Assembly: GCA_902805735.1 (NCBI GenBank)
Contig: CADCTW010000106.1
Span: 1-54,381 of the forward strand
Direction: 5' to 3'
Length of the DNA: 54,381 nt
From: an uncultured Gemmatimonadota bacterium
GTDB lineage: Bacteria; Gemmatimonadota; Gemmatimonadetes; Longimicrobiales; Longimicrobiaceae
Part shown: piece by piece, positions 1,190-44,343 of the stretch
How positions within the stretch are numbered: the first letter of the stretch is position 1
Layout of the letters: every line of letters begins with the position of its first letter
Position numbers and translations under genes: made by a program
Notes under the pieces: generated by a model
What the model was told of the DNA's origin: nothing
Database searches by the model: none
Seen by the model: only the letters and a program-made list of their open reading frames with translations

Positions 1190-1443
1190 CGCGCGCGCCC
1201 AGACCCTCACGCAGGCGAGAGGGCGATTTCCAGCCGCCCCGCCGGGAGGCCGGCACCTTCGGCACGAACGATCCACGATCGTACCCGCTTGCGATTCCTC
1301 TTTCCGATCCTCCCCTGGGTGCTCGCGCGCTTGCGCCTGTCCAGGGCGCGCTGCCACGACGCGCTTATGCTGGACGGCGGCCGCACCGTGCTCCACCTCC
1401 CCGGCGCCGCGCCGCGCCGTGCGATCCTCGCGCGCGCGTAGCC

Positions 1444-2265
1444 ATGCACGAGCGCGCACGGCTCCTCTTCCACCTGGGCCGCTACACCCTGGCGCGCGAG
1501 GAGCTGGCGCGCACGCTGGCGGCGGACCCGGGCGACCCCTGGTCACACGCCCTGCTCGCGCTCTGCCTGGCGGGCCAGAGGGAGTGGGACGAGGCGCTGA
1601 GCGCCGCGGAGGAGGCCATCCGCACGGGACCGGACGAGCCGTTCTGCAATTACGCGCGCGCCTACGTGCTGCGCGGGCGCGGGCTTCCGGTGCCGGCCGC
1701 GCTGTCCGCGCAGGAGTCGATCCGCATCCAGCCGGACTACTTGCAGGGCTGGGTGCTCCTGGGGGAGATCCGGCTGGATCAGGAGGACTACCGGGATGCC
1801 GCGCGATGCGCCCGCGAGGGGCTGGCCGGCGACCCGGAGAACCGGGGGTGCCTGGCGGTGCTGGCGACGGCGCTCATGGAGATGGGCTACGACCGCGAGA
1901 CACGCGGGGTGACCGAGGACCTCCTGCGCATCGCCCCCGAGTATGCCAACGCGCACGCGCTGGAGGCGTGGCGGCTCCTCTACCGGCTGGAGCACGACGC
2001 GGCGATCGCGCGCTTCCATGAGGCGCTGCGCCTGGACCCGGACCTGGACATCGCGGTGGGCGGGCTGCGGCGGGCGGAGGGTGAAAACGATCCCTTCAAC
2101 CGCGCCTTCCAGCGGGTCCACGGCCCGCTGATCCGCCGCGTCAACCGCCTCAACCCCCACGCGCGCTGGCTCCCCACCCTCGTGATCATCTACGGCGAGC
2201 TGTTCGCCGTTCTGTTCCTCTTCACCGCCCTTGGCGTGGTGCTGTTCGCGCTTGATGACCTGTAG
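1444..2265 (+). CDS. TPR-repeat protein with C-terminal membrane anchor
   Basis: A 273-residue protein made of about five to six tetratricopeptide repeats (residues 1-210). TPR helices are visible in segments such as YTLAREELARTLAADPGDPW, AARCAREGLAGDPEN and AIARFHEALRLDPDL. A basic linker leads to one hydrophobic helix near the C-terminus (about 240-268), so the TPR face should sit on one side of the inner membrane as a C-tail-anchored scaffold. There is no signal peptide. TPR proteins act as protein-binding scaffolds; the partner cannot be inferred here. It converges on the response regulator gene downstream. Confidence 0.75.
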   Translation: MHERARLLFHLGRYTLAREELARTLAADPGDPWSHALLALCLAGQREWDEALSAAEEAIRTGPDEPFCNYARAYVLRGRGLPVPAALSAQESIRIQPDYLQGWVLLGEIRLDQEDYRDAARCAREGLAGDPENRGCLAVLATALMEMGYDRETRGVTEDLLRIAPEYANAHALEAWRLLYRLEHDAAIARFHEALRLDPDLDIAVGGLRRAEGENDPFNRAFQRVHGPLIRRVNRLNPHARWLPTLVIIYGELFAVLFLFTALGVVLFALDDL

Positions 2266-31093: not shown

Positions 31094-32953
31094 TCACGCG
31101 AGGTAGTGCAGATCCCCTTCGCGGCGGAGGATCCCCTCCTGGTTCAGGTACTCCAGGTAGGGGATCGTGTACTTGCGGGACAGGCCCAGCGCCCGCCCGA
31201 ACTCGGCGGCGCGGACGCCGTCCAGCCCATGCCGCCGCGGGGCCTCCCGCAGCTCGTCCGCCGCGTCCGCGTGCAGAAAGAGGTCGGGGCTCACCCGCAC
31301 CACGCGCCCCTGGTCGCGCAGCTTGGCGGCGACGCGCTCCACCACCTCGGGGCGCCGCGGGTGCAGCTCGCCGTACTCGCGGATGCGCGCCGGGCGCAGC
31401 CCCGCCGCCCGCAGCCGCTCCAGGAGTTCCCCGGCGACGCGCTCCTCGTCGGGGGTGAAGGCCACGCGGCCCGGGTAGAGCACGCACCCGGCGCCATCCA
31501 GGCGGACGCTGGCGCGCAGGAACGCGGTGCCCTCGCGCCCCAGCAGGGCGCGCAGCAGGGCGGGGAGGTGCGAAGCGGGCCCCCTCAGCTCCCGGCCGAG
31601 CCGCGCGTACGGCACCAGGCGCTCACCGCGCGGCTGGCCGGCCACGAAGTCGTGCAAGCGCTTCAGCAGCTCCCCCTCCCAGTCCGCCCCCCACACCAGG
31701 AGCCCCGCCCCGCCGCCGGGGCCCAGGCGCAGCTTCGGGCTTTCCTCCGCCTCGCGCCGCAGCGCCGCCTCGGGGAGCATCCACCGGCGGGCCAGGGCGG
31801 GCAGCTCGACCACCGGCGCCGGGGCCTCGGCCAGGTACGCGGCGAGGGACGGCTCTCCGCCCTCCCGCAGGGAGTAGGCGGCGCGCTCGGCGGGGAGCAC
31901 GCGGCGCGGGCGGCCGGGCGCCACGTCCAGCACCTCGCCGCCGCCCACCGTGGCCAGGGGGCTGGTGCCGCGCAGGATGAAGCGCTGCCCGGGGAAGAAA
32001 GGCGCCTCCTCCCGCAGCTCCAACTGCGCCCACCCCTCGCGCTCCAGCCCCCACAGGCGGCACTCGGCCTCGGTGCACCCCGCGTGGAAGTGGAGCCGCG
32101 CGCCGTGCTTCCACTCGGCCGGCGCGCCCTCCACCCAGCGGATGCGCACGTTGAGAAAGCGCCCCGTGTACGGGTGCCCGGGTGCCACCAGGGTGTCGCC
32201 GCGCCGCACGGCGTCCGCGGCGAGCCCCGCGACGTTGACGCCCACGCGGTGCCCGGCCCCGATGGCGCCCACGCGCTCGTGGTGGTTGTGGAGCGAGCGC
32301 ACCCGCCACGTTCCCCCGGCCAGCGCCACCTGGCCCCCCTCCGCCAGGCGCCCGCGCACCAGCGTGCCCGTGACCACCGTGCCGATCCCCCGCAGCGTGA
32401 ACACGCGGTCCACGGGGAGGTAGGGGAGCGCGTCCTCGCCGTCCGGGCTGGCACCGCACGAGGCGAAGATAGCCTCCTTGAGCCGCGCGATGCCGCGCCC
32501 GCTCACCGAGTCCACCACATGCGCGGGCTGCGTGGGGACACGGGCGCGCGCCAGGAGCGACGCCACGTCGTGCAGCGCGGCGTCGAGCTGCTCGGCGCTC
32601 GCCAGCTCCGCCTTGGTGACCACGGGGATCAGAGAGCGCACCCCCAGCAGGTCCAGGATCTGGAGGTGCTCCAGTGACTGCGGCATCACGCTTTCCCGCG
32701 CGTCCACCACCCACAGCGCCAGCTCGAACCCCGTGGCGCCGGCCACCATGTTCTTCACCAGCTTCTCGTGGCCGGGCACGTCCACCATCCCCAGCCGGTA
32801 GCCGTCCGGGTGGTCCAGGTGGGCATATCCCAGGTCGATGGTCATCCCCCGGGCACGCTCTTCCGGGAGGCGCGAGGGGTGGATGCCGCTCAGCGCCTCC
32901 ACCAGCGTGGACTTGCCGTGATCGATGTGCCCCGCCGTGCCGATCAGCCTCAT
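31094..32953 (-). CDS. selB: Selenocysteine-specific elongation factor
   Basis: A 619-residue SelB. The GTPase domain begins MRLIGTAGHIDHGKSTLVEA (G1), with G3 DVPGHEKLV. Domains II and III follow (about 175-345), including GTVVTGTLVRG. The C-terminal half consists of winged-helix domains that bind the SECIS hairpin, ending in FGRALGLSRKYTIPYLEYLN and a hairpin-recognising basic tail. The G4 motif reads VVTKAELA, with Glu in place of the usual Asp. SelB brings Sec-tRNA to ribosomes stopped at UGA. The ATG overlaps the selA stop (ATGA), so the two are translationally coupled. Confidence 0.97.
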   Translation of the reverse strand: MRLIGTAGHIDHGKSTLVEALSGIHPSRLPEERARGMTIDLGYAHLDHPDGYRLGMVDVPGHEKLVKNMVAGATGFELALWVVDARESVMPQSLEHLQILDLLGVRSLIPVVTKAELASAEQLDAALHDVASLLARARVPTQPAHVVDSVSGRGIARLKEAIFASCGASPDGEDALPYLPVDRVFTLRGIGTVVTGTLVRGRLAEGGQVALAGGTWRVRSLHNHHERVGAIGAGHRVGVNVAGLAADAVRRGDTLVAPGHPYTGRFLNVRIRWVEGAPAEWKHGARLHFHAGCTEAECRLWGLEREGWAQLELREEAPFFPGQRFILRGTSPLATVGGGEVLDVAPGRPRRVLPAERAAYSLREGGEPSLAAYLAEAPAPVVELPALARRWMLPEAALRREAEESPKLRLGPGGGAGLLVWGADWEGELLKRLHDFVAGQPRGERLVPYARLGRELRGPASHLPALLRALLGREGTAFLRASVRLDGAGCVLYPGRVAFTPDEERVAGELLERLRAAGLRPARIREYGELHPRRPEVVERVAAKLRDQGRVVRVSPDLFLHADAADELREAPRRHGLDGVRAAEFGRALGLSRKYTIPYLEYLNQEGILRREGDLHYLA

Positions 32954-34302
32954 GCCAGCTCGTCCAGTGCCCGCTGCAGCTCCGCGAGGTCCTGGGGGAA
33001 GAAGGTGCGCAGGTCCAGGTAGAAGCGGTCCCGCTGCACGTAGCCCACAATGGGCACCTCCCGCGTGGCGAAGCGCCGCTTCAGCGCCTCCGCCGGCAGA
33101 TCATGGTGCACCAGCTCCAGCCCCACGCTGCCGAAGGCGGCCTCGGGATTGGAGCCGCCGCCCAGCGTGCCGCGCAGGGCCACGCGCGCGCACGTCCGCC
33201 ACCGGCTCTCCGGCCCGGGGATGCGCAGACCCCGGATGCGCTCCTCCAGCTCCTCCAGCGGCGTGTGGAAGAGGCGCCAGAGGGGGAGCGGGCGCCCGGC
33301 GAGGTGGTGCCGGAGCGCGCCGTGCAGCAGGGCCATGCGCACCTTGTCCAGCCGCAGCACGCGGTATAGGGGGTTCTTGCGCATGGCCTCCACCAGGGTG
33401 GAGCGGCCCACGATGATCCCCGCCTGCACCCCGCCGAACAGCTTGTCCGCGCTGCAGCAGACCACGTCCACCCCCTTTTCCAGGCTCGCCACCACCCGCG
33501 GCTCGTCGTCTAGGAGCGCGTCCCCGCCCGCCTCCATGAGCCCCGAGCCGTTGTCCTCGATCACGGGGATGCCCAGCCGCCCCCCGATCGCCGCCAGCTC
33601 GCCGGCGCCGACCTGCTCCACGAAGCCGCGCTGCACGAAGTTGGACTGGTGGACCTTGAGCAGCGCCGCGGCACCGGGGTGTGCTTCGAAGTCGCTGGGC
33701 CGTGTACGGTTGGTGGTGCCAACTTCCACCAGGCGGCACCCGCTGGCCGCCATGATGTCGGGCACGCGGAAGCTGCCGCCGATCTCCACCAGCTCCGAGC
33801 GGCTGACCAGCACCTCGCGCCCCGCGGCCAGCGTGTTGAGGGCCAGCAGGAGGGCGCTGGCGCAGTTGTTCACCACCAGCGCGCCGGACGCCCCTGTGAG
33901 TAGCGTGAGCTGCCGCTGGAGGGCCGCGTCGCGGTTGCCGCGCCCCTGCGTGGCGGCGTCCCACTCCAGGTCCGTGTAGCCGGCCAGGGCTTCCAGCTCG
34001 TCCAGCAGCTCGCCCAGCGGCGCACGCCCCAGGTTGGTGTGGATCAGCACGCCGGTGCCGTTGACCACGCGGCGCGGAAAGGGCGTCCGCACGGCCTCCG
34101 CCTCGGCGACGCACTCGGCCACCACCCGCGCGCCGACCTCGTCCGCAGACCCGCCGGCGCGCAGCCGCTCCCGGTGCCGCTGCACGACCCCGCGCACCAG
34201 GCGGGTGCGGTACGCCTCCGCCAGCTCCGCGCTCGCCGCGCGGAACGCGGGATCGCGCAGGACCTCGTGGACGGGCGGGAGGGACGCGCGGGGGTTATGC
34301 AA
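32950..34302 (-). CDS. selA: L-seryl-tRNA(Sec) selenium transferase
   Basis: A 450-residue PLP enzyme that converts Ser-tRNA(Sec) to Sec-tRNA(Sec) using selenophosphate. It shows VVNGTGVLIHTNLGRAPL (about 79-96), the PLP lysine Lys287 in VCCSADKLFGGVQAGI, and the VEDNGSGL-like IEDNGSGLMEAGG loop. The C-terminal VGYVQRDRFYLDLRTFFPQD is family-typical. The length fits the decameric bacterial form. It is first of a selA-selB operon (4-bp overlap) and lies 21 bp downstream of the tRNA-Sec gene, probably in the same transcript. Confidence 0.97.
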   Translation of the reverse strand: MHNPRASLPPVHEVLRDPAFRAASAELAEAYRTRLVRGVVQRHRERLRAGGSADEVGARVVAECVAEAEAVRTPFPRRVVNGTGVLIHTNLGRAPLGELLDELEALAGYTDLEWDAATQGRGNRDAALQRQLTLLTGASGALVVNNCASALLLALNTLAAGREVLVSRSELVEIGGSFRVPDIMAASGCRLVEVGTTNRTRPSDFEAHPGAAALLKVHQSNFVQRGFVEQVGAGELAAIGGRLGIPVIEDNGSGLMEAGGDALLDDEPRVVASLEKGVDVVCCSADKLFGGVQAGIIVGRSTLVEAMRKNPLYRVLRLDKVRMALLHGALRHHLAGRPLPLWRLFHTPLEELEERIRGLRIPGPESRWRTCARVALRGTLGGGSNPEAAFGSVGLELVHHDLPAEALKRRFATREVPIVGYVQRDRFYLDLRTFFPQDLAELQRALDELA

Positions 34303-34323
34303 AGCGGCGCGCCGGGGAATGGC

Positions 34324-34414
34324 GGAGAGATACAGGAATCGAACCTGCCCGCGGAACTCGGTCCCGCGTCACGGTTTTGAAGACCGCGGGCCACACCAGT
34401 GACCTGATCTCTCC
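34324..34414 (-). tRNA. selC: tRNA-Sec (anticodon UCA)
   Basis: A 91-nt minus-strand tRNA. It has an 8-bp acceptor stem (GGAGAGAT with ATCTCTCC), a 6-bp D-stem (GGTCAC with GTGGCC) closed by a 4-base TGGT loop, anticodon loop CTTCAAA with UCA, a long variable arm (7-bp stem CGCGGGA with TTCCGCG), and a T-arm with TTCGATT. The 8-bp acceptor and long D-stem are diagnostic for bacterial tRNA-Sec and exclude tRNA-Ser. CCA is not encoded. It lies just upstream of selA. Confidence 0.95.
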
Positions 34415-40099: not shown

Positions 40100-40861
40100 A
40101 TGCGAACCACACTTGCTCTGCTCCTGGCGATCTTCGCGGCGGGGTGCGCCTCCGGGCCATCCGTCGCGCCCAGCCCGGCGCGCGCCGCGCTCCCCGCGCA
40201 CCCGGGGTTCGACATCGACCGCTACCCCGGCGACGCCGCGATGCGGGCGTGGCGCGGCGCGGCGCCGTACGAGTGGGTCGGGTTCTACCTCCCCGCGCCC
40301 TGCCACCGCGATCCGTCGTGGAGCGGCAAGCGGGCGGCCCTCCAGGCGATGGGGTACGGGTTCGCGGTGCTGTACGTGGGGCAGCAGCAGTTCGAGGGCG
40401 ACACCACCCGCGCGGCGCCCGGCGCCCCCGTGGTCTGCTCGCGCACGCTGCTCACCGCGGAGCGTGGCCGCGCCGACGCGGCGGACGCCGCCGCCCGCAC
40501 CGCCGCGGAGGGATTCCCAGCCGGGACCACCGTGTTCCTGGACGTGGAGCGGGCCTCCCGCATCACCCCGGAGATGTCCGCCTACGTGACCGCCTGGGTG
40601 GAAGCGCTGCGCCGCGACGGGCGCTACCGCCCGGCCATCTACGCCCACCGCGAGAACGCGCCGGCGCTCCGCGCCCTGGCCGGCGCGATCCCGTTCTGGG
40701 TCGCGGGCGGAGCGGGCTTCGCGCTGGACCGCACGCCACAGCAGAGCGGGGTGGAGTTCGCCTCCGTCTGGCAGGGGCTCCCCGGTCCGCGCAGCTGGGG
40801 CGGCATCACGCTCACGGTAGACGAGAACGTCGCGGCCACGCCCTCGCCATCCGCACCGTAG
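40100..40861 (+). CDS. Lipoprotein with DUF1906-like (glycoside hydrolase-like) domain
   Basis: A 253-residue protein. The signal MRTTLALLLAIFAAGC gives lipobox AAGC (Cys16). The domain starts GFDIDRYPGDAAMRAWRGAA and continues YEWVGFYLPAP, FAVLYVGQQQFEG, GTTVFLDVERA and FWVAGGAGF, the strand pattern of the DUF1906/Rv2525c-like TIM barrels related to GH25 muramidases. Asp/Glu at strand ends (FDIDRY, FLDVER) are candidate catalytic acids. It may act on cell-wall glycans outside the cell. Start at 40100 is chosen because the signal begins there. Confidence 0.82.
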   Translation: MRTTLALLLAIFAAGCASGPSVAPSPARAALPAHPGFDIDRYPGDAAMRAWRGAAPYEWVGFYLPAPCHRDPSWSGKRAALQAMGYGFAVLYVGQQQFEGDTTRAAPGAPVVCSRTLLTAERGRADAADAAARTAAEGFPAGTTVFLDVERASRITPEMSAYVTAWVEALRRDGRYRPAIYAHRENAPALRALAGAIPFWVAGGAGFALDRTPQQSGVEFASVWQGLPGPRSWGGITLTVDENVAATPSPSAP

Positions 40862-40927
40862 CTCACACAGAGACACAGAGGCACAGAGAAGGACTTCTTC
40901 TCTGTGCCTCTGTGTCTCTGTGTGAGT
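40861..40927. repeat. CACAGAG-family hairpin
   Basis: Near-perfect arms: GCTCACACAGAGACACAGAG.. (40861-40889) and its mirror (40899-40926). It lies between convergent genes (lipoprotein and flavin monooxygenase) and could terminate both. Confidence 0.9.
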
Positions 40928-40928
40928 C

Positions 40929-41969
40929 CTAGCCTACGCGCGCCCCGTTCACCAGCGGGATCACCTCTTCGGCGAAGCGCTCCATCTCCTCCAGCTGCGG
41001 CGAGAACTGCAGCAGGAGCAGGTCCAGCCCCGCGCGCTCGAACTCCATGATGCGCTCGGCCACCTGCTCGGGCGTGCCGACCAGGCCGGAGCGGAGGCCG
41101 CGGTTGGAGACGGAGTAGTCTTCCAGCGAGACGCGCTGCTCGAGCTGGGTGTTGTTCAGCCAGTCCTGGTAGTTGGCGTACCCCGCCGTCCCCGGCCGCA
41201 CCTCGGTGATCCGCTCCACCTCGCGTTGCGCCTCCGCCTCGGAGCCGCGCACGATCGCGTAGCCCGCCGCGCCGAACTTCATGGGCGGCAGCTCCAGCCG
41301 CTCGCGGCGCTCGCGCAGGTCGGCCACCTTGGCGCCGATCGTCTCCGGCGGGTCGCCGTGGGTGAGCCAGGCGTCGCACTTCTGAGAGATCAACGCCTTG
41401 GCCGCCGGCGACTCGCCCCCCGCGTAGATCGTGGGGCGCGGGCGCTGCACCGGCTTCGGCTCCAGGATGGCGTCGTCCACGCCGTAGTACTTCCCCTGGT
41501 AGCTGAAGCGGGGCTCCTTCCACATCCCGTCCACCACGTCCAGCCACTCGCTGGTGCGGGCGTAGCGGTCGTCGTGCTCGTCGAACTGGATGCCGTACTT
41601 CTTCGCTTCGGTCGCCCACCACGACGAGACCACGTTCAGCGACAGGCGGCCGCCGCTGATCTGGTCGATGTTGGCGGCCTGCTTGGCGAGGAGCGCGGGC
41701 TGGTGGAAGGTGGGGCGCACCGCCACCATGATCTCCATCCGCTCGGTGACCGCCGCCAGCGCCGCCGCCGTGGACCACGCGTCCAGCGACGGGGCATCCA
41801 TCCCCTTGATGTCGTTGAGGTTCAGCTCGGCCACCAGCGTCAGGTCGAAGCCGGTCTGCTCGGCGCGTTGCGCGAGGCGGCGGGCGTATTCCCAGCTCGC
41901 CGCCATCCCCTCGTCGGGAACGTTGCGCAGCCACCCGCCGAAGACGGGGAGCCAGAATCCAAACCTCAT
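40929..41969 (-). CDS. LLM-class flavin-dependent monooxygenase (SfnG/SsuD-like)
   Basis: A 346-residue bacterial luciferase-fold protein. It begins MRFGFWLPVFGGWLRNVPDE and carries LTLVAELNLNDIKGMD, TERMEIMVAVRPTFHQPALL, the flavin-site ISGGRLSLNVVSSWWATEAK and PRPTIYAGGESPAAKAL. These match FMNH2-dependent monooxygenases acting on alkanesulfonates or dimethylsulfone, so the likely role is sulfur scavenging. The ATG follows GGAGGTGGGGCG and overlaps the ATP-grasp stop (ATGA). The operon is preceded by a Cys-rich leader peptide and terminator, fitting control by sulfur supply. Confidence 0.92.
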   Translation of the reverse strand: MRFGFWLPVFGGWLRNVPDEGMAASWEYARRLAQRAEQTGFDLTLVAELNLNDIKGMDAPSLDAWSTAAALAAVTERMEIMVAVRPTFHQPALLAKQAANIDQISGGRLSLNVVSSWWATEAKKYGIQFDEHDDRYARTSEWLDVVDGMWKEPRFSYQGKYYGVDDAILEPKPVQRPRPTIYAGGESPAAKALISQKCDAWLTHGDPPETIGAKVADLRERRERLELPPMKFGAAGYAIVRGSEAEAQREVERITEVRPGTAGYANYQDWLNNTQLEQRVSLEDYSVSNRGLRSGLVGTPEQVAERIMEFERAGLDLLLLQFSPQLEEMERFAEEVIPLVNGARVG

Positions 41970-42958
41970 CGCCCCACCTCCTGCAGCACCGGCGCCTCGA
42001 TCCCCGCCTGCTCCTCCAGGTAGTCCGCGAGCCGCGCGAACGGGTCGAAGCCGATCACGTTGGGCGCGTCGGCCACGAAGTTGGAGAGGGCGTTGATGTC
42101 GTAGAAGTAGAGCTGCCCATCGCGCGAGTCGATCATGTACTCGATCCCGCCCACGTCGATGTGCGCGGCGGCCATGATGGCCTCCACCTGCGCGCGGATC
42201 TCGGCGGGGGGCTCGTAGCCCTCCACGCGCAGGCCGCGCTTGGGCGCGTCCACGGCGCAGATCTGCGCGTCCAGCTCCACCCCGTCCACCCGCTGGCAGA
42301 CGTCCGCGGGGCACAGGTCGAAGGAGTTGCCGGGGGTGTAGATGCGGATGCCGTACAGGTACTCGCCGCCCAGCACCTCCACGCGCACGATGCGGCTCTC
42401 CTCCTGCGGGATGAACTCCTGCACCAGCGCCACCGAGTCGATCCCCAGCTGCAGGTCGCCGGCCACGGCGGCGGCCGCCAGCTCCTCCGGCGTGTCGAAG
42501 CGCCGCACTCCCGCGCCGCTCCCGCCGATGTTGGGCTTGATCACGATGGGGAAGCGCAGCCCCTCGGCCGCGGCCGGCGCCTGCGAGGGGTGGTTGATGG
42601 CGCGCGCCCTGGGGTACGGCAGCCCGAGCCGCTCCAGCAGCGCGAGCTGGTGCGCCTTGGAGATCTCGGTGAGCCACGCGTCGTACCCGTTCACCACGCG
42701 GATGCCGTTCTCGCGCAGGTAGCCCAGGTACGAGGTGGTGTAGAAGATCGAGTTGGCGTGGCCGCGGTTGAACGCGGAGGGGCTCATCCGGTTGAAGACG
42801 AGCGAGTACTTCGGCTCCTCGGCGGGGTCGAAGCGGTGCTCGCCCGCGTGGATCTTGACGTACGGCGTGCCGCGCCGGTCCAGCTCCGCGAAGAGGGGGC
42901 GGAACCACTCCGGGTGCTCGTAGAAGATGGCGATCGGGCGTTCGGGCGTGGCGGACAT
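41966..42958 (-). CDS. ATP-grasp ligase
   Basis: A 330-residue ATP-grasp enzyme. It has LRFPIVIKPNIGGSGAGVRR (ATP-binding Lys and Gly loop, about 133-152), ALVQEFIPQEESRIVRVEVL (hinge), and the Mg-binding YMIDSRDGQLYFYDINALSN with Glu/Asp/Asn. The N-terminal domain (MSATPERPIAIFYEHPEWFR) is a pre-ATP-grasp fold. Such enzymes join an acid to an amine or thiol through an acyl-phosphate. Linked to a sulfur-type monooxygenase it might make a Cys- or thiol-containing peptide, which is inference. It is the first structural gene of the operon. Confidence 0.9.
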   Translation of the reverse strand: MSATPERPIAIFYEHPEWFRPLFAELDRRGTPYVKIHAGEHRFDPAEEPKYSLVFNRMSPSAFNRGHANSIFYTTSYLGYLRENGIRVVNGYDAWLTEISKAHQLALLERLGLPYPRARAINHPSQAPAAAEGLRFPIVIKPNIGGSGAGVRRFDTPEELAAAAVAGDLQLGIDSVALVQEFIPQEESRIVRVEVLGGEYLYGIRIYTPGNSFDLCPADVCQRVDGVELDAQICAVDAPKRGLRVEGYEPPAEIRAQVEAIMAAAHIDVGGIEYMIDSRDGQLYFYDINALSNFVADAPNVIGFDPFARLADYLEEQAGIEAPVLQEVGR

Positions 42959-42984: not shown

Positions 42985-43014
42985 AAAAACCGCGGCCCCG
43001 TCTCGGGGTCGCGG
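42985..43014 (-). terminator. Intrinsic terminator (attenuator) in the operon leader
   Basis: On the minus strand an 11-bp stem, CCGCGACCCCG (43014-43004) and CGGGGCCGCGG (43000-42990) with one G-U pair and a 3-base loop, is followed by TTTTT (42989-42985). It lies 27 bp upstream of the ATP-grasp ATG. It would stop transcription before the operon unless an alternative pairing with 43100-43093 (CGGGGGCG) forms. Confidence 0.88.
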
Positions 43015-43044
43015 CTGTGTCGCCTTCGTGGAGCGGCGCGCCTC

Positions 43045-43161
43045 TCAGCCGCCGGTCAGCTCATGCCGACCCATCCCACGCACGCGCGCCGTCGCCCCCG
43101 GCTGGCGATGCCAGCGGGCACGGGGACAGCAGCACATGCACATGGGGGCGCGGTTCGACAT
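43045..43161 (-). CDS. Cys-rich leader peptide (attenuation)
   Basis: A 38-codon minus-strand frame from ATG 43161 to TGA 43045. The peptide begins MSNRAPMCMCCCPRARWHRQ; codons 8, 10, 11 and 12 are Cys. Codon 13 starts CCCCG (43125-43121, segment 1), which can pair with CGGGGGCG (43100-43093, segment 2) around an inner CTGGCATCGCCAG hairpin. A ribosome stalled on the Cys codons would cover segment 1. Segment 2 would then be free to pair with CGCGACCCCG (43013-43004), the 5' arm of the terminator. This is the classical attenuation plan, here responding to cysteinyl-tRNA. The frame is too short for routine gene calling. Confidence 0.82.
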   Translation of the reverse strand: MSNRAPMCMCCCPRARWHRQPGATARVRGMGRHELTGG

Positions 43162-43170
43162 GCCGATGAG

Positions 43171-43197
43171 TGTATAAAGAGCAGCACGATCCGGCAA
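43171..43197 (-). promoter_or_regulatory. Promoter of the Cys-leader operon
   Basis: On the minus strand TATACA (43176-43171) lies 15 bp downstream of TTGCCG (43197-43192). The start point would be near 43164, within a few bases of the leader ATG at 43161, so the leader is probably translated from a leaderless message. Confidence 0.5.
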
Positions 43198-43605: not shown

Positions 43606-43612
43606 ACAGCGG

Positions 43613-43680
43613 GGGCTCACACAGAGACACAGAGGCACAGAGATGATGTTCTCTGTGCCTCTGTGTCTCTGTGTGAGCCC
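43613..43680. repeat. CACAGAG-family hairpin (best-formed copy)
   Basis: Arms GGGCTCACACAGAGACACAG.. (43613-43643) and its exact mirror (43650-43680) over about 31 bp, loop ATGATGT. It lies between convergent genes. Confidence 0.95.
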
Positions 43681-43685
43681 TCCGT

Positions 43686-44105
43686 TCACGGCGCGCGCAG
43701 GAGCGGGCGGAAGCCGGCCTGGTGGAAGTGCGCATCGGCGGTCAGCGCATCGGTCAGCCCGCGGTCCTTCATCACCACGAACGAGATGCAATCGGTGAGG
43801 CCCCACGCCTTGTCGTGGTGGCGCCGGAAGAAGGTGCGTCCCCGCTCGTACAAATCCTCCGTGAGCGGGGTCACCTCGACGAGCGGGTTACCCTCGAACA
43901 GGTCCAGGAGCGTCACGGCCCTGCTCCGCAAGGCACCTTTCGCAAGCGCGTTGCCGACTTCGATGATCACCGCGCGCGTAGTGACGACCCGGATTCGCTC
44001 GGCTTCGATCGTGTGTGCCAGCGCGACCGCATGCGCGTGGTGCAGATCTCGAGGCGATCCGAGCGCGACTGCGTAGGATGCATCCATGAACAGCTTATTC
44101 GTCAC
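43686..44105 (-). CDS. PIN-domain toxin (VapC-like)
   Basis: A 139-residue PIN-domain ribonuclease. Acidic metal ligands appear in KLFMDASYAVALGS, AVIIEVGNALAKGA, WGLTDCISFVVMKD and ALTADAHFHQAGF. The GTG start at 44105 overlaps the upstream antitoxin gene by 11 bp. Toxins of this type cleave specific RNAs, often tRNA or rRNA, and are neutralised by the neighbouring antitoxin. Confidence 0.9.
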   Translation of the reverse strand: MTNKLFMDASYAVALGSPRDLHHAHAVALAHTIEAERIRVVTTRAVIIEVGNALAKGALRSRAVTLLDLFEGNPLVEVTPLTEDLYERGRTFFRRHHDKAWGLTDCISFVVMKDRGLTDALTADAHFHQAGFRPLLRAP

Positions 44106-44343
44106 GCCGGGCGCCCTCACCATAGAGGTAAAAGTCGAGGCGTTCCGACCAGTCCGGGGGACCATCCAGGTTGGCTGATGCCAGGAAGTGCAGCCAGCCG
44201 TACGGATTGCATTCCTCCGTTGCCGGCACTTCCGAGGGCTCCTCCTCGACGGTGATGCGGACGCGGGTGTCCGGGGCCAGGGGAATGGGGCCGTCGGGGC
44301 GGAGGACTTCGCCGTCGAACGTGGCGTGGAAGGTGGTCGTCAT
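44095..44343 (-). CDS. Antitoxin of the PIN toxin pair (DUF104/AF2212-like)
   Basis: An 82-residue protein. The N-terminal half (MTTTFHATFDGEVLRPDGPI, then TRVRITVEEEP) matches the small DUF104/AF2212-like beta-hairpin domain found beside PIN toxins. The C-terminal part (PYGWLHFLASANLDGPPDWS, RLDFYLYGEGA) should wrap the toxin's active site. Stop overlaps the toxin start by 11 bp. Confidence 0.78.
   Translation of the reverse strand: MTTTFHATFDGEVLRPDGPIPLAPDTRVRITVEEEPSEVPATEECNPYGWLHFLASANLDGPPDWSERLDFYLYGEGARRDE

Follow-up and report, generated by a model that had tools for sequence, protein, structure and literature searches.

What is the role of a short, cysteine-rich reading frame and a terminator-like hairpin in front of two genes for an ATP-grasp ligase and a luciferase-like monooxygenase (LLM), and what might these two enzymes do? 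The question is raised by a locus of the window, which is the whole 54,381-nucleotide stretch analyzed here, contig C106 of an uncultured Gemmatimonadota bacterium of the Longimicrobiaceae whose genome is 86% complete and 5% contaminated. A first-pass annotation had read the locus as a transcription attenuator ahead of an ATP-grasp/monooxygenase operon. That reading is supported by conservation, by covariation, and by the presence of the same leaders at known cysteine and sulfur genes. Very probably the window leader attenuates transcription in the classical, ribosome-mediated way, with charged tRNA-Cys as the signal, a judgment made without transcript, ribosome or cysteine-response data.

The Leader and its Operon

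All elements of the unit lie on the minus strand. The whole leader (43161-42985) begins by encoding MSNRAPMCMCCC..., and its reading frame specifies a putative leader peptide of 38 residues, MSNRAPMCMCCCPRARWHRQPGATARVRGMGRHELTGG (43045..43161), with the ATG at 43161 and a stop codon that ends at 43045. Codons 8, 10, 11, and 12 of this frame are Cys codons (TGC ATG TGC TGC TGT, 43126..43140) and are the presumed regulatory codons. Stretches of five codons with at least four Cys are found 3 times among the 108,728 of all six frames of the window; one is the leader and two overlap at a single other site. Directly 3' of the Cys codons sits a predicted protector hairpin (1:2, 43093..43125), formed by segment 1, CCCCG (43125-43121), and segment 2, CGGGGGCG (43100-43093). 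Segment 2 is also the proposed antiterminator strand (43093..43100), which would partner segment 3 once segment 1 is masked. Segment 3, CGCGACCCCG (43013-43004), belongs to a GC-rich intrinsic terminator (3:4, 42985..43016) that consists of a hairpin (43016-42988) and a tract of five T (42989-42985). From the end of this tract to the ATG of the ATP-grasp gene there are 26 nt, and the Shine-Dalgarno-like AGGAGAG of that gene is placed 3' of the terminator. The frame, its Cys codons, segments 1, 2, and 3 and the terminator are all where the first-pass annotation had placed them.

The promoter-like pair that it had also proposed (43169..43197) is a putative promoter with a -10-like TACACT (43174-43169) and a weak -35 element, TTGCCG (43197-43192). 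TACACT ends 7 nt ahead of the leader ATG. In the genus, a TANNNT motif ends 6-7 nt ahead of an in-frame ATG in all nine leaders of the ATP-grasp gene, a spacing at which the transcription start would fall at or beside the leader ATG, as in the leaderless upstream ORFs (uORFs) of mycobacteria. Across groups and targets the motif stands 4-10 nt before the ATG in 27 of 60 leaders, and it is mostly absent in other groups and before other targets. The pattern suggests that in the genus the leader ORF starts leaderless or nearly so, in the absence of transcription start data. Rfam scans of the window and of 29 relative loci gave no T-box, and no known riboswitch, SAM-I included, was found in the window at the gathering threshold. 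Matches to plant and animal microRNA families near the locus were discarded; they score below gathering thresholds and lie on inverted intergenic repeats. Two such inverted repeats (40856-40932 and 43612-43681) look like a dispersed intergenic repeat. Elsewhere in the window, a PIN-domain ORF (43686-44165, minus strand) lies upstream of the leader, and a selenocysteine cluster (31094-34414, minus strand) comprises tRNA-Sec (34320-34414), SelA (32950-34302, minus strand; PF03841, 339 bits) and SelB (31094-32953, minus strand).

The first gene of the operon (41966..42958, minus strand) encodes an ATP-grasp ligase of the RimK/LysX kind with 330 residues, and its stop codon overlaps the ATG of the LLM gene (41969) as ATGA. 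The ligase meets the cut-off of Pfam PF08443 (31.5 bits against 21) and does not reach that of TIGR00768 (64.9 against 143.4 bits). Its AlphaFold2 model (mean pLDDT 81, pTM 0.83) is nearest to LysX/ArgX (3vpd, 3vpb), with TM-scores normalized by target of 0.82-0.84. Cys216, Cys221, and Cys234 are invariant in 21 sequences of the family and are located in or beside a low-confidence loop of the model (residues 217-237), a possible metal or redox site. The second gene (40929..41969, minus strand) encodes an LLM of 346 residues (PF00296, 222 bits) that is similar to SfnG and alkanesulfonate monooxygenases. The first-pass annotation had likened this enzyme to sulfur-scavenging monooxygenases, and the likeness holds insofar as sulfone and sulfonate monooxygenases are its closest relatives: the best-scoring NCBIfam model is SfnG (TIGR04021), and among its solved relatives (3rao, 8vw6, 8t0u) the first is a putative luciferase-like monooxygenase and the others are named alkanesulfonate/dimethylsulfone monooxygenases. 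It does not extend to a specific assignment, as the score of 256 bits is below the cut-off of the SfnG dimethylsulfone monooxygenase model (383 bits). No LLM relative was found in the flanks examined of the remote ATP-grasp homologues (L023-L029, L059). The operon most likely frees sulfur from an organosulfur compound, with both substrate and chemistry inferred, and similarity of the LLM is the only link that the window operon itself would have to cysteine supply.

Conservation of the Leader and Pairing of the Antiterminator

Among 61 genomes searched, there were 22 orthologues of the ATP-grasp gene (58-100% identity, window included), as well as eight remote homologues (about 31-36% identity). 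The closest named relative of the window protein, among the matches listed, is encoded by a Longimicrobium metagenome-assembled genome (MAG; 93% identity), which makes the host Longimicrobium-like and not actinobacterial. The gene is preceded by a Cys-clustered leader ORF in 21 of the 22 close orthologues and in all eight remote homologues. A terminator is present in each of the 27 leaders scanned (L010, L011, and L059 are outside this set), 22-69 nt past the ORF stop and with energies of -17 to -36 kcal/mol. A lack of the Cys run or of the terminator in related genomes had been named beforehand as grounds for abandoning the attenuator, and the locus passes on both counts. The T tracts of several leaders are short (3-4 T, e.g., L002-L005 and L013).

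Cys density reaches at least three per nine codons in 17 of the 21 close leaders and is two in L006, L010, L016, and L017. An automatic rule (an ORF within 400 nt upstream with at least three Cys among its first 25 codons) was satisfied by 20 of 22 close and 6 of 7 remote loci, L059 being excluded. Its match at L011, a TTG-started ORF by the gene with three scattered Cys, was discounted, and this locus otherwise has only a GTG-started ORF with two scattered Cys codons. The Cys ORFs of L014 and L027 were recognized by eye, and the two-Cys ORF of L010, which is farther upstream, was located by a covariance model at 80 bits. The leader ORF of the eighth remote homologue (L059) is MISQAIDRDFNDHAGCACCCCRPPGRGVLT. 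Beyond the Cys cluster and its place the leader peptides have little in common, and the spacing and order of their residues vary (e.g., MCMCCC, CTCMCSCPC, or a C-terminal CCCCCCC). A different leader, CGATTTNTAGCGATTGC...CCGCGTAA, with a hairpin and a T run, is shared by the upstream regions of L011 and L272 (G013:C87:1224-1250 and G016:C83:28706-28731), where an ATP-grasp or metY gene is without a clear Cys run; the exact shared pattern is absent elsewhere in 21 genomes.

The predicted structures of the window leader are not equally strong when they are considered alone. The terminator hairpin has an energy of -21.1 kcal/mol (z -4.9) that is equalled by none of 200 shuffled sequences, which bears out the 3:4 pairing of the first-pass annotation. 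The 1:2 hairpin (43128-43088) is found where it had been proposed, but its stability (-22.9 kcal/mol, z -1.6) is matched by 14 of 200 shuffles. The 2:3 pairing of the window is not beyond chance by itself (shuffle p = 0.106), and its support is therefore comparative. The same per-locus test gives p <= 0.05 in 9 of 27 leaders, the window not among them. As this test is weak in GC-rich DNA, a swap test was used instead, on the premise that, if 2:3 pairing is required, the strongest partner of a leader should be the terminator arm of the same locus. In MAFFT alignments of the leaders, the terminator arms are misplaced.

For the swap test, 53 leaders with terminators were reduced to 35 by dropping near copies (>=75% alike), and the duplex energy of the 60 nt that follow the final Cys codon with the terminator's 5' arm was compared over 20,000 permutations of partners. 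Leaders and their own partners average -22.4 kcal/mol, against -18.3 kcal/mol (sd 0.5) for permuted partners (z -7.8, p 5e-5). The signal comes from the first 30 nt past the Cys run (z -7.4); nucleotides 31-60 contribute none (z +0.4), and the further controls are flat, both for the 60 nt that end at the Cys run (+0.4) and for the stretch behind the terminator (-0.2). These data support a 2:3 pairing that is specific to each locus and an antiterminator that covaries across leaders, so far as alignment-free comparison can establish this. The antiterminator of the first-pass annotation is thus not upheld by the window alone and is upheld by the 35 leaders together.

Co-transcriptional folding was modeled on a transcript that ends with segment 3, with and without a ribosome on the Cys codons. 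The mean paired fraction of segment 3 with segment 2 rises from 0.42 without a ribosome to 0.66 with stalls, and it goes up in 42 of 53 leaders; in 11 of the 53 it is not raised by the mean stall. With a ribosome on the last Cys codon only, a rise is obtained in 38 of 53. In the window, 2:3 pairing is 0.00 in the free transcript and 0.71-0.73 when the ribosome is stalled on the Cys codons. At equilibrium, on the other hand, the finished window leader adopts the terminator fold whether or not it is masked, and the switch must therefore be kinetic, that is, decided during transcription. Folding with and without the ribosome, a check that had been suggested at the outset, agrees with the proposed switch in the first setting and not in the second.

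Genes behind Poly-Cys Leaders in Three Phyla

In the family, a covariance model (R1) was built from nine leaders and run over 21 genomes, of which 17 loci were read. Five of these have a Cys ORF (>=3 Cys in 9 codons) and one (L282) is the two-Cys ORF of L010; the other 11 have no Cys ORF and were taken as false. Since R1 misses the window's own leader, the resulting list of regulon members is incomplete. Targets include the ATP-grasp gene of L010, the metY gene of G015, a gene whose product is 60% identical to the cystine symporter TcyP, and, in G003 (L297), a gene run that encodes ATP sulfurylase, sulfite reductase and PAPS reductase and whose sulfurylase gene is separated from the leader by about 1.5 kb of reading frames without an assignment; the G011 site ends at a contig end. 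The PF01507 loci of the genus have no Cys ORF in the flanks examined; in G003 the leader heads the gene run, about 4.5 kb farther upstream. metY encodes an O-acetylhomoserine/O-acetylserine sulfhydrylase (TIGR01326, 649 bits), and its leader is present in G009, G008, G002, and G015 and absent in G016 and G019; in G020 the contig stops within the leader region. The window's own genome has a second leader, MTFATLMCCRMCMCARSHEGGHGCGAVPCG, with a terminator, before a gene for a MetN-like ABC ATPase (TIGR02314, 289 bits against a cut-off of 500) with a NIL domain (PF09383). This site scores 33 bits, less than the false match L283 (37 bits), and its support comes from the Cys ORF and the terminator. 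A plain Cys-rich string pattern was dropped as a regulon search, for it gave 128 matches in four Longimicrobium genomes and 205 in the reversed control.

The wider distribution was examined in the best 80 of at least 565 confirmed stretches with relatives of the ATP-grasp gene. Strict poly-Cys ORFs (>=4 Cys in 8 codons, <=2.5 kb upstream) occur at 36 of these 80 loci in the sense direction (39 ORFs) and at 3 in antisense (3 ORFs). A looser rule (3 Cys in 8 codons, within 420 nt ahead of the first gene of the operon) finds 45 sense and 5 antisense loci in the same best 80 of at least 565. By record title, the loci with strict ORFs belong to Gemmatimonadota, Acidobacteriota, Bacteroidota and one MAG labelled Cyanobacteria. 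The strict ORF is absent at 44 of the 80 loci, including all 10 from planctomycetes. Immediately 5' of the ATP-grasp gene, 18 of the 80 loci have a gene for an NADPH-dependent FMN reductase (PF03358 in all three tested). The looser rule finds a Cys ORF ahead of the reductase gene at 13 of these 18 loci in the sense direction and at none of 18 in antisense, and the leader thus tracks the head of the operon. Among the 45 looser-rule ORFs, 30 have a terminator of -15 kcal/mol or lower within 60 nt of the stop. A miss is no proof of absence, as the rule overlooked L090, which is the same locus as L002 and has a terminator.

In Acidobacteriota, a second covariance model (R2) found a Cys ORF at one of eight loci read, at the ATP-grasp gene, and no further regulon member. 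An acidobacterial MAG has a tRNA-Cys(GCA) gene between the leader terminator and the ATP-grasp gene (L138:2310-2385). Two other acidobacterial loci (L320 and L321, about 1440-1640, reverse strand) have in common a leader peptide ending in ...KRVF..SGSGA.D-stop, followed by a terminator-like hairpin and a membrane protein gene.

The leaders of Bacteroidota are built differently. The Cys-rich pattern gave 94 matches there, overlaps counted, and its reversed control 5. The ORFs of Pontibacter and Nafulsella end in, or shortly after, a run of 4-10 Cys codons, and an Rfam SAM-I riboswitch (RF00162) stands directly 5' of the poly-Cys ORF. A search for RF00162 in five Bacteroidota genomes, in which the best 150 candidates of each were scored, returned 20 riboswitches, all above the cut-off. 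A poly-Cys ORF begins 5-11 nt behind 14 of the 20 (tandems are found at L128, L129, L137, L141, L156, L200, L201, and L204-L207). The genes behind the 14 tandems are ATP-grasp-LLM (5), metY (3), cysH-cysD (2), a NirA-like sulfite reductase (2), an NhaC-like antiporter followed by another ATP-grasp gene (1), and a ferredoxin followed by an O-succinylhomoserine-sulfhydrylase-like gene (1), as assigned by place or by reading, with families tested on one or two representatives each. In the 300 nt that follow each of the other six riboswitches, every ORF has fewer than 3 Cys in any 8 codons. Five of the six precede metH (TIGR02082, 745 bits on part of one; the others are 73-98% identical), and the sixth precedes a PLP-enzyme remnant and homoserine dehydrogenase. 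No terminator was found behind the Bacteroidota Cys runs (-15 kcal/mol, 60 nt rule), and the mechanism in this phylum may therefore differ.

An amino acid attenuator is expected to stand before genes that make or import its amino acid, and this is met in the relatives by sulfate assimilation, metY and the tcyP-like gene. Cross-genome comparison establishes the Cys cluster, the terminator, the 2:3 covariation and the sulfur-gene regulon, and by the same comparison the window unit is one site of this regulon.

Proposed Mechanism, Alternatives and Known Systems

In the proposed mechanism, RNA polymerase would start at or just before the leader ATG, with a ribosome trailing behind. When Cys-tRNA is ample, the ribosome would clear the Cys codons, 1:2 would re-form, 3:4 would then form, and transcription would stop at 42985. 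Under a shortage of Cys-tRNA, the ribosome would stall at codons 8-12 and cover segment 1, and the freed segment 2 would take segment 3 as it emerges, ahead of the synthesis of segment 4. The terminator would thereby be pre-empted and the ATP-grasp-LLM operon transcribed. The sensing of tRNA-Cys, the direction of the response and the dependence of termination on charged tRNA are inferences. As for the enzymes, the LLM is proposed to oxidise a C-S bond using reduced flavin, in line with the FMN reductase gene found in the operon of relatives. The ATP-grasp enzyme may condition the substrate by making an amide or peptide bond.

The unit could instead act on translation, as the polycysteine uORFs of mycobacteria do, with a stalled ribosome altering the coupling of the ATP-grasp gene or access to its ribosome site and with the hairpin being incidental. 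The published Cys leaders act on downstream translation, according to the available portions of two citing papers (PMC9031893, PMC13236596), the start in the genus looks leaderless, and no terminator was found behind the Bacteroidota leaders. Such control is nevertheless improbable as the main explanation, given that terminators occur in 27 of 27 leaders, that their 5' arm covaries specifically with the 30 nt past the Cys run, and that AGGAGAG lies downstream of the terminator. It is very unlikely that the Cys-rich nascent peptide is itself the sensor, of a metal, an oxidant or a thiol, and arrests the ribosome. Certain leader peptides are thought to be metal sensors, and the Cys clusters here do have CxC and CC spacings; what the leaders share, though, is little more than a Cys cluster and its place, and their identified targets serve sulfur assimilation, with no metal or redox defence among them.

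The short Cys-rich ORF also adjoins an ATP-grasp gene, and the model of the ligase resembles PsnB among others (7dro, rank 11), which would fit a precursor peptide matured by its neighbor into a graspetide-like RiPP. This has hardly any standing, since similar ORFs head metY, the tcyP-like gene, cysH-cysD and sulfite reductase, a conserved core sequence is absent, and a terminator separates the ORF from the gene. On these grounds the RiPP precursor and the metal-sensing peptide were both rejected. Least credible of all is that GC-rich DNA produced the hairpins and a fortuitous Cys run by chance. GC content is high and the per-locus 2:3 pairing is mostly within the range of shuffles, but 36 sense against 3 antisense loci, the swap test with its flat controls, and the regulon all speak against it.

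With transcription attenuation by charged tRNA-Cys as the preferred reading, a broader one can be put forward, for and against which the evidence is about evenly balanced. A cysteine-starvation regulon with poly-Cys leaders would span Gemmatimonadota, Acidobacteriota and Bacteroidota. In Bacteroidota, sulfur-entry genes would take both SAM and Cys-tRNA as inputs, two RNA inputs that are inferred from the start of the leader ORF 5-11 nt behind the SAM-I riboswitch, and metH would take SAM alone. The ATP-grasp-LLM(-FMN reductase) operon, a member in all three phyla, would be an undescribed sulfur-scavenging pathway in which the ligase conditions a substrate for flavin-dependent C-S cleavage. If this is true, cysteine becomes a full member of the amino acids that are read by classical terminator-based attenuators, in phyla where leader peptides of such kind are not usually described. 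The regulon offers natural contrasts (metY with a Cys ORF, metH without), and two-input RNA logic could readily be studied in Pontibacter strains, where a SAM riboswitch and a Cys leader stand in tandem. The leader may also serve as a marker, the gene behind it being probably involved in cysteine supply, which gives a testable function to the ATP-grasp-LLM pair, with at least 565 ATP-grasp relatives in the genome collection.

Classical attenuators of the trp/his type follow a four-segment logic (1:2, 2:3, 3:4) with control codons before segment 1. The window leader has the same logic and differs in its amino acid, in its targets, and in an ORF that extends beyond segment 2. The SAM-I riboswitch (S box, RF00162), which is directly before poly-Cys ORFs in five Bacteroidota genomes and absent at the window, senses SAM and not Cys-tRNA; in Bacteroidota it is combined with the leader peptide. 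Among peptide leaders for cysteine, the accessible text of Seliverstov et al. (2005; PMC1262725) has predictions for Mycobacterium, P. acnes and B. longum and no conserved terminators with them. Ribosomes have been seen on such ORFs, which would be the first cysteine-directed attenuation in bacteria (Shell et al., 2015; PMC4633059, in part). The polycysteine leaderless uORFs of mycobacterial cys operons (Canestrari et al., 2020) are described as translational in the parts available of PMC9031893 and PMC13236596. The mycobacterial leaders resemble those described here in having a Cys run in a short ORF near the mRNA 5' end, before sulfur genes, and in reading cysteine supply via ribosome speed. 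In contrast to their lack of conserved terminators and their action on translation, as far as those partial sources go, there are terminators in 27 of 27 leaders here and a covarying antiterminator, in other phyla and with the ATP-grasp-LLM operon as a target.

The nearest precedent is uORFC-8-2, a predicted Cys-codon attenuator that precedes cysS in Rhodobacterales; it has two Cys codons in tandem and ends in a T run that would fit an intrinsic terminator (PMC8632094, from the portion available). By that portion it is confined to cysS and to one order of Alphaproteobacteria; here, 2-7 Cys codons precede ATP-grasp-LLM genes and, in relatives, other sulfur genes. The gene behind the window leader is ATP-grasp and not cysS, and no cysS was met behind the leaders read, in the absence of a directed search for it. 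The accessible parts of PMC2965389, PMC8079986, and PMC3766115 contain no Cys attenuator. In the open-licence literature, at the level of titles and abstracts, no recognised Cys attenuator in Gemmatimonadota, Acidobacteriota or Bacteroidota was found, nor a combination of SAM riboswitch and Cys leader, nor the ATP-grasp-LLM pair. The class of mechanism is already known; as far as has been searched, its terminator-based use for cysteine, the phyla, the regulon, the tandem with SAM riboswitches and the ATP-grasp-LLM target are new.
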